From contig CAJXJI010000003.1 of the NCBI GenBank assembly GCA_913054235.1, positions 1 through 40,971 on the forward strand: a stretch of 40,971 nucleotides of DNA, written 5' to 3'. A model generated the notes under the pieces. The model ran no database searches and was not told where the DNA came from. It was given only the letters and a program-made list of their open reading frames with translations. The position numbers and the translations under genes are program-made. Source of the DNA: an uncultured bacterium. GTDB taxonomy: Bacteria; Patescibacteriota; Minisyncoccia; Minisyncoccales; UBA10102. Within the stretch, counting starts at the first letter, position 1. Each line of letters begins with the position of its first letter. Below, one piece after another: positions 27,591-29,490 of this stretch.

Positions 27591-27617
27591 AAACAAAAGA
27601 AGGGGATAAGCCCTTCT
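27587..27617 (-). terminator. Terminator of the infC-rpmI-rplT operon
   Basis: On the minus strand AGAAGGG and CCCTTCT (27598-27617) form a 7-bp hairpin with a 6-nt loop, followed by TTTGTTTTT. It overlaps the rplT stop. The plus-strand T content is weaker, so it serves chiefly rplT. Confidence 0.8.
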
Positions 27618-27963
27618 ATTGTTTCACTTGCTCAACGAGTCTTTGAAATGTTCCAGGATGTTTTTCTCGTAACTCTGCTAGTATTTTTCGGTCCAGAGTA
27701 ATACCTTGTTTTTTTAAGAGAGGGATGAATTTGCTATAGGTTAATCCTTGTTCACGTACTCCAGAAGAAATCTTAATCTCCCAGAGTTTTCGATACTCTC
27801 GTTTTTTAGTCTTTCTGTCAGTAAATGCATGCTCCCAAGCGTGACGGAGAGCATCTTTTGCCAGACGGTACTTTTTGTTTCGCCCAAATCGAAAACCCTT
27901 GGTTTGTTTTAAGACATTCTTTCTCCTTTTGTTTGCAGTGGTTCCTCGTTTTACTCGTGCCAT
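27616..27963 (-). CDS. rplT: Large ribosomal subunit protein bL20
   Basis: This 115-residue basic protein has the standard L20 start MARVKRGTTANKRRKNVLKQ and core YRLAKDALRHAWEHAFTDRK, KKREYRKLWEIKISSGVREQ. L20 is needed early in 50S assembly and in many bacteria represses its own operon. It is the last gene of infC-rpmI-rplT, 1 nt after rpmI, with a terminator on its stop. Confidence 0.97.
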   Translation of the reverse strand: MARVKRGTTANKRRKNVLKQTKGFRFGRNKKYRLAKDALRHAWEHAFTDRKTKKREYRKLWEIKISSGVREQGLTYSKFIPLLKKQGITLDRKILAELREKHPGTFQRLVEQVKQ

Positions 27964-27964
27964 G

Positions 27965-28165
27965 TTAGAAAGTTACCAGTTTTTTTATTTTCTTTGCGTC
28001 AGGAATACTTAAGGTTGTCCATTTTCGCGCCTGACGTCGTTGCTTTCCGGTTTTCTTTGTTCGGTAGTGATCTTGTCCTGCAATACGACGCAAAATCTTT
28101 CCACTCTTGGTGAACTTAAAACGTTTTGTAATAGATTTTCTTGTTTTTGCCTTTTTGGTGGCCAT
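27965..28165 (-). CDS. rpmI: Large ribosomal subunit protein bL35
   Basis: This 66-residue, very basic protein reads MATKKAKTRKSITKRFKFTK, SGKILRRIAGQDHYRTKK and ARKWTTLSIPDAKKIKKLV, the L35 pattern. It sits one nucleotide from infC and rplT in the conserved initiation factor 3 operon. No internal promoter is evident. Confidence 0.96.
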   Translation of the reverse strand: MATKKAKTRKSITKRFKFTKSGKILRRIAGQDHYRTKKTGKQRRQARKWTTLSIPDAKKIKKLVTF

Positions 28166-28166
28166 G

Positions 28167-28676
28167 TTACTTTTTCGTTATCACCATGGTTAATCCCCGA
28201 GGCTCCAGTTTCATATCGCGTTCTGTTCGAATGGGAATTAAGATAGTGAGTTGTTCTGTAAACTTTAAAATCTTTTCTCTTGCATGATCAAGCAATGCTT
28301 TCTGTCGTCCTCTGAGCCGAAGATTGATTCTGATATTGTCCCCACGCTTTAAAAACTTTTCCGCTTGCTTCACTCTTGTTTCAAGGTCGTGGTCTGAAAT
28401 ATTGAAGCTGAGGCGAATTTCTTTTAAATCTCCCCCTGTATGCTTTTTTGCCTCCCTCTCTTTCTTTCCTTGCGAATAGAGATACTTTCCGTAGTCTGCA
28501 ATTCTTGTTACGGGAGGATCTACTTTTTCAGTTACTTGAATGAGATCAAGACCAGCTGCTTCTGCTCGAGCGAGAGCCTCAGCTAAAGGAACTACGCCTG
28601 CTTGAGTTCCTGTTTCGTCAATTAAACGAACTTCAGTTGCTCGTATTTGTTTGTTTGTGTATATTTGTTTTGCCAA
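28167..28676 (-). CDS. infC: Translation initiation factor IF-3, non-AUG start
   Basis: This 169-residue protein is IF-3, which keeps the 30S subunit free and checks start-codon pairing. The N-terminal domain holds QIRATEVRLIDETGTQAGVV and LDLIQVTEKVDPPVTRIADY GKYLY; the C-terminal domain holds KEIRLSFNISDHDLETRVKQ and INLRLRGRQKALLDHA. The start is TTG at 28676. There is no in-frame ATG in the N-terminal region, and an upstream UGA limits the choice to TTG or an ATT two codons earlier. A rare start codon fits the known self-regulation of infC by initiation stringency. It lies 26 nt downstream of the tmRNA 3' end with no terminator between. Confidence 0.95.
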   Translation of the reverse strand: MAKQIYTNKQIRATEVRLIDETGTQAGVVPLAEALARAEAAGLDLIQVTEKVDPPVTRIADYGKYLYSQGKKEREAKKHTGGDLKEIRLSFNISDHDLETRVKQAEKFLKRGDNIRINLRLRGRQKALLDHAREKILKFTEQLTILIPIRTERDMKLEPRGLTMVITKK

Positions 28677-28702
28677 TGTAATTTGTGTAACTCAAAAATA
28701 TG

Positions 28703-29051
28703 TGGAGGTGGAGGGAATGACCCCTCGTCTAGAAGATATCCTATTAATACTTCTTCAGGCATAGCCTCATTCATGCAAGAAGAAGAGTTAAAATGGGGCG
28801 AAATCTCTTTTCTTTTTGATTCTGTTTATGTTGCAGAGTTTCCGAATCCGAAACAATGCCCTTCTCGATAATTGACACCCAGTTCTGCCTATCGAGATCA
28901 GCAGGAGGATGGCTATAGGTTTATGCTACAGCAAGAGCCCTTTGAGGGGCAAAGATGTTGGCATTTATGGTGCCCCAGGTTTTTTTGTGAGTATCCTGGA
29001 ACCTCAGCCTGCATATTAATGTTCTTTCCTCTATCGAAGCAATTCACCCCC
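28703..29051 (-). ncRNA. ssrA: Transfer-messenger RNA (tmRNA)
   Basis: A full one-piece tmRNA of 349 nt fills the space between smpB and infC. The 5' end GGGGGTGAATTGCTTCGATA has the tmRNA motif with UUCGA. The acceptor GGGGGTG pairs with 3' CACCTCC (one G-U), then discriminator A; CCA is not encoded. Helix P2 pairs ATTAATAT with GTATTAAT. Pseudoknot 1 (TGAG/CTCA with CCAGG/CCTGG) precedes the tag. The tag frame at 28962-28921 encodes ANIFAPQRALAVA-stop, with the resume codon at RNA position 90. A pseudoknot with TCTCGATA/TATCGAGA and another with GTTTC/GAAAC and GATTC/GAATC follow. The T-arm loop is unusual (6 nt, GTCATT). Confidence 0.95.
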
Positions 29052-29490
29052 GTTTTAGGGCCCGTTCCATTTCTTGCTGGGCCTCTCTTTTGCGCAGGAG
29101 CTGCCGCTTATCTCCTTTTCTCTTTCCTCTGGCAATGCCAAAGGCAAGCTTAATCTTGGCCTTGCTAGTATACACCTTCAAGGGCACAAAAGTCAATCCT
29201 TCCTGCTTTATCCTTCCATATAGCGAATGGAGCTCCACTTTTTGCAAGAGAAGCTTTCTTGCACGGTCAGGATCATAGTTTAAAGGAGCATTTTTCGGTT
29301 GGTAAGGAGGAATAGTAGCTCCCAGCAAAAAAAGCTCTTTGCCCCTGAAGCTCACAAAGGATCCAGCTAGTTGAATCTTTCCCTGGCGAATTGCTTTTAC
29401 CTCTTGCCCTGTGAGCACCAAACCCGCCTCAATAGTCTCAAGGATTTGATAATCATGGTGTGCTTTTCTGTTTTCAGCTAAAGTTGGCAT
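29044..29490 (-). CDS. smpB: SmpB, tmRNA-binding protein
   Basis: SmpB carries tmRNA to stalled ribosomes and mimics the codon-anticodon part. The 148-residue protein has the beta-barrel start NRKAHHDYQILETIEAGLVL, TGQEVKAIRQGKIQLAGSFV, YDPDRARKLLLQK and the basic C-terminal tail (FGIARGKRKGDKRQLLRKRE), which becomes helical in the ribosome. Its last codons and stop (29044-29051) are also the first eight bases of mature tmRNA. No promoter at proper distance from the tmRNA 5' end was seen, so the two are probably made on one transcript. Confidence 0.97.
   Translation of the reverse strand: MPTLAENRKAHHDYQILETIEAGLVLTGQEVKAIRQGKIQLAGSFVSFRGKELFLLGATIPPYQPKNAPLNYDPDRARKLLLQKVELHSLYGRIKQEGLTFVPLKVYTSKAKIKLAFGIARGKRKGDKRQLLRKREAQQEMERALKRG

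Follow-up and report, generated by a model that had tools for sequence, protein, structure and literature searches.

A conserved promoter-like site within smpB and a recurrent smpB-ssrA overlap in a Parcubacteria order

The overlap between smpB and ssrA in Carsonella ruddii was reportedly mentioned by Mao et al. in 2009. It was published in 2014 together with the idea of a nonstop feedback; among the 2031 genomes considered in that study the overlap was found nowhere else, and it was called restricted to Carsonella (Hudson et al., PMC4131195). A related arrangement is known from the Alphaproteobacteria, where the tRNASec gene is nested in selB, processing of the RNA would make a nonstop mRNA, and a balance between RNA and protein is proposed (PMC8124441). 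A third case is arfA, which, as cited in PMC4131195, carries an RNase III site that gives rise to a programmed nonstop mRNA, the product of which depends on trans-translation activity.

In this study, we describe a smpB-ssrA pair that resembles that of Carsonella: the end of smpB extends into ssrA, and maturation of the tmRNA should leave a nonstop smpB mRNA. However, the Carsonella overlap is variable and is found in decaying symbiont genomes whose SmpB has no tail, whereas the overlap reported here is exactly 8 nt long, uses the UGA of the tmRNA, and occurs in many Parcubacteria with a full-length SmpB and a candidate promoter embedded in smpB. Like selB and tRNASec, the pair places an RNA gene inside the gene of its partner protein, although in that system the whole tRNA is nested and the parts of PMC8124441 covered here describe no embedded promoter. 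Likewise, it shares with arfA, as that case is cited, a nonstop mRNA whose product would be dependent on trans-translation; however, ArfA is a backup factor and its gene has an RNase III site, whereas SmpB acts in the main pathway itself. The mechanism is prior art from Carsonella, and it is the range of the overlap that is corrected here, since it is not limited to Carsonella. In addition, the locus offers, for a group that is largely uncultured, a concrete candidate for the promoter of a stable RNA, and a clean case of promoter and protein in the same codons, which would help to explain why smpB and ssrA stay together. A literature search that reached few subscription journals turned up no account of a promoter for ssrA within smpB.

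The smpB-ssrA junction

The window, by which we mean the whole 40,971-nt stretch of DNA that was analyzed, belongs to the genome of a Parcubacterium, approximately 478 kb in 31 contigs. Its minus strand carries smpB, ssrA, infC, rpmI, and rplT; argS and ileS run divergently. The smpB gene (29044 to 29490, minus strand) encodes a 148-residue SsrA-binding protein, which matched the profile TIGR00086 with 161.7 bits, above the curated cutoff of 119.1, and NF003843 with 178.8 bits; its product ends in ..LKRG, followed by a TGA stop at 29046 to 29044. Downstream of ssrA on the same strand lie infC, which encodes IF-3 (28167 to 28676), rpmI (27965 to 28165), and rplT (27616 to 27963). The infC gene has a TTG start located 26 nt past the discriminator base of the tmRNA (28676 to 28703).

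The ssrA gene (28700 to 29051, minus strand) encodes a one-piece tmRNA with G1 at 29051 and the discriminator A at 28703; the 3' CCA is not encoded. It matched the full RF00023 model (positions 1 to 374) with 90.7 bits, compared with a gathering score of 47, and an E value of 4e-34. The acceptor strand GGGGGUG pairs with CACCUCC (28710 to 28704) in a 7-bp stem, the third pair of which is the G-U that serves as the alanine identity pair. This pair is G-U in 41 of the 45 genomes of the window's Parcubacteria order that have the same overlap, and the fifth is G-C in 26, G-U in 5, and A-U in 14 of them; the predicted pairing of the codons at the end of smpB is thus supported by covariation, mainly at the fifth pair. 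The tag frame that had been proposed was confirmed as ANIFAPQRALAVA, followed by a TAA stop (28921 to 28962, minus strand), and is identical in two relatives (G002 and G019); the frame, with its resume codon and stop, is conserved, ANIFAPQRALAVA being present in G000, G002, and G019.

ARAGORN, when run on the sequence, missed the tmRNA that Rfam detected, perhaps because its T loop has 6 nt (GUCAUU, 28711 to 28726) in place of the usual 7. A 7-nt T loop is a common feature of tmRNAs that is not needed for membership of RF00023, and loops of 6 nt, rarely 5 nt, were found in most of the parsed members of the window's family. The 6-nt loop is a derived variant of this family and gives no ground for excluding the RNA from the tmRNAs. 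One genome of the comparison, G021, has a second tmRNA-like match (C4:3313-3700, 85.7 bits) in addition to a normal smpB-linked ssrA.

The overlap GGGGGTGA covers 8 nt on the minus strand (29044 to 29051): nucleotides 1 to 8 of the tmRNA (GGGGGUGA, 29051 to 29044) double as the end of smpB and take in positions 2 and 3 of the Arg147 codon CGG, all of GGG (Gly148), and TGA. The smpB stop is the conserved UGA of the tmRNA (nucleotides 6 to 8); as in the Carsonella type of overlap, it is read on the strand of ssrA and falls downstream of the tmRNA 5' end. The overlap between smpB stop and tmRNA acceptor that the original prediction had noted is thereby confirmed.

A putative ssrA promoter within smpB

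It had also been claimed that no promoter sits at the right distance for an independent start of ssrA. This holds for the region directly before 29051, and a search of the 45 nt preceding G1 gave no promoter in any of the 45 overlapping genomes; it does not hold for the smpB coding sequence, where a sigma70-type sequence, TTGACT-N18-TATACT, whose -10 box ends 115 nt before G1, was found at 29196 to 29167. Its -35 box (TTGACT, 29191 to 29196, minus strand) occupies codons Leu99-Thr100 and its -10 box (TATACT, 29167 to 29172, minus strand) codons Tyr107-Thr108, with a spacer of 18. This spacer is within the 16 to 18 nt of a sigma70-type promoter, and the hexamers show more conservation than the coding function would require. 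The start predicted from this site, near 29160, comes close to the separate tmRNA start inside smpB that the original prediction had set against its own proposal.

When presence was scored as at least 9 of 12 matches at the same smpB site, 131 of the 142 linked genomes of the order had the embedded promoter. Ten of the 11 linked genomes without the standard site had a substitute: the site was shifted by 2 nt in two (G043 and G413), new TTGAAA-17-TAGAAT-like sites had arisen in smpB in the Staskawiczbacteria-like family f33 and in G384, and the promoter had moved to between smpB and ssrA in three genomes of family f9 (G032, G360, and G402). No promoter was found by scanning in the overlapping genome G422. 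Many named Parcubacteria carry a perfect TTGACA-18-TATAAT.

Matches at this site were about twice as frequent as expected from synonymous-codon shuffles. Leu99 is encoded by TTG, a codon with a background of approximately 20%, in 133 genomes out of 134, compared with an expectation of 32.5, and no other of the 139 testable columns is as biased (z, 20.6); Thr108 is ACT in 112 of 113 genomes (54.7 expected), and genomes with Asn or Ser at this residue use AAT and AGT, which maintain TATANT. The residues that accompany the promoter are Leu-Thr ... Tyr-Thr/Asn/Ser, whereas Tyr-Leu/Phe is common where ssrA lies elsewhere.

The motif is associated with linked ssrA. It is gone from smpB in all three genomes of the order from which ssrA has split off (G435, G416, and G034), and across the phylum it was found in 30 of 36 linked versus 2 of 36 unlinked genomes, linkage being assigned from coordinates, with Rfam placing the tmRNA directly downstream in most of the named loci that had no regex match. 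The corresponding Fisher P value of 9e-12 ignores shared ancestry, and a phylogenetically corrected test of pairs had too few supported pairs. The rnpB gene of the window's genome has a promoter of similar sequence, TTGACA-17-CATAAT, that ends 10 nt before its 5' end.

We consider it very probable that ssrA has its own embedded promoter, that the resulting pre-tmRNA has a leader of smpB codons that is trimmed by RNase P, and that the overlap is mostly neutral compaction. Overlap, promoter motif, codon-level conservation, and association with linked ssrA were seen in the sequences of genomes that are mostly metagenome assembled; an active promoter, its transcription start, and cleavage by RNase P are inferred from them. 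Transcription of ssrA would begin near 29160, within smpB, and give a 5' leader of approximately 109 nt (29052 to 29160, minus strand) that corresponds to the last third of smpB and would be removed by an RNase P cut between 29052 and 29051. That RNase P matures tmRNA at the 5' end is established (PMC3985003), and its RNA is encoded in this genome (C1:6963-7326, 129.3 bits).

Recurrence of the overlap and the fate of the smpB stop

We mapped SmpB and tmRNA in 60 relatives, in 142 evenly sampled members of the order, and in 287 genomes of the phylum, and the junctions were read from the sequence. The comparison across related genomes that the original prediction had proposed showed that the overlap is no one-off: among the 142 genomes of the order with a readable junction, the exact 8-nt overlap was present in 45, from 18 of 45 families, and overlaps of 1, 17, 18, 19, or 30 nt in a further 5; the smpB stop lay 0 to 12 nt ahead of ssrA in 50 and farther away in 42. 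Exactly the in-frame UGA of the tmRNA ends 45 of these 50 overlaps. One genome that was read from outside the order (G260) also has the overlap, as do records with the names Nealsonbacteria, Wildermuthbacteria, and Staskawiczbacteria. In L252, nucleotides 6 to 8 of the tmRNA are UGG rather than UGA, and smpB extends 29 nt into the tmRNA, a longer overlap.

Nine of the 11 informative genera are mixed with respect to the overlap: the window's own genus has values of +8, +8, +8, +8, and -91, and others have +8/-52 and +8/-51. Parsimony on the SmpB tree required 38 changes, compared with 39.5 for shuffled labels, and a family concordance test likewise gave no signal of retention; SmpB trees are weak (approximately 130 columns), and the missing signal may be partly tree noise, whereas the mixing within genera is independent of the tree. 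The overlap is thus recurrent and labile across the order. A UGA at tmRNA nucleotides 6 to 8 was present in 14 of 50 genomes with a short gap versus 24 of 42 with a long gap (P, 0.006), a deficit to be expected if overlaps arise by decay of those short gaps that have an in-frame UGA. These counts would fit a neutral route, in which the upstream stop is lost and the tmRNA UGA takes over: when smpB loses its own stop near ssrA, reading would end at that UGA, provided it is in frame, one or two residues later.

Translation of smpB would then take place on a longer transcript, with the tmRNA's own UGA as its stop. No terminator-like site was found at the smpB-ssrA junction; because the smpB mRNA must also enter ssrA to reach its stop, some long transcripts should be cut to nonstop mRNAs, ending after Lys146 plus C. 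The argument that an RNase P cut at G1 of a long transcript strips smpB of its stop is sound, and the nonstop smpB mRNA is possibly a side effect rather than a maintained circuit.

The original prediction went further and proposed a built-in feedback loop, in which smpB and ssrA share a transcript, RNase P makes smpB nonstop, and trans-translation tags SmpB and thereby balances the two partners; tagged SmpB would end in ..RALK-AANIFAPQRALAVA, with the first Ala from the charged tmRNA. The position of the stop within the tmRNA and the presence of RNase P RNA are consistent with this proposal, as are the recurrence of the overlap in so many families with the same in-frame UGA, the idea published for Carsonella, and the selB/tRNASec analogue. 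However, a conserved separate promoter would make the tmRNA supply independent of smpB transcripts, and losses of the overlap occur within genera, with about two-thirds of the relatives that share the gene order lacking it. Given a tmRNA that seems to be made from a promoter of its own and an overlap that has not been retained, we regard a selected loop as unlikely, and the proposal of balancing was not supported.

A broader combination is also improbable: that the ssrA promoter in smpB codons has shaped SmpB residues across the Parcubacteria and that, in the third of the order where the smpB stop is the tmRNA UGA, each long transcript yields either SmpB or tmRNA, with RNase P and trans-translation setting the SmpB level.

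Other readings of the embedded site

It can be envisioned that the infC-rpmI-rplT operon downstream, and not ssrA, is what the embedded promoter drives, since a same-strand infC follows ssrA in 136 of 138 genomes of the order and stays with it in the split genomes. However, the promoter is kept where infC is divergent, elsewhere, or not near (L127, L259, and L297; also L130, L271, L276, L287, and L300), and a promoter that persists without an adjacent infC belongs to ssrA; we therefore regard the infC reading as very doubtful. On the simplest account, the putative site drives ssrA and may supply infC as well.

That the hexamers reflect only SmpB protein or codon constraint, with no promoter, is most improbable: they do encode a conserved LTxxPLxxYT stretch, and synonymous shuffles alone yield about half of the matches, but the near-invariant codons at Leu99 and Thr108, the retention of TATANT by AAT and AGT, the disappearance of the motif when ssrA is unlinked, and its replacement nearby when lost all argue against such a reading.

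Several minor observations concern smpB and its promoter. The records L286 and L295 and order family f33, all Staskawiczbacteria-like, have lost the standard promoter and carry TTGAAA-17-TAGAAT-like sites nearby in smpB. L303, titled Spirochaetia, has an smpB-ssrA pair that is Parcubacteria-like and includes the embedded promoter; it is possibly a misnamed or misbinned contig. Finally, strong synonymous bias (z, approximately 11) was seen order-wide at Leu17 CTG (29440 to 29442), Val31 GTA (29398 to 29400), and Leu81 CTT (29248 to 29250).
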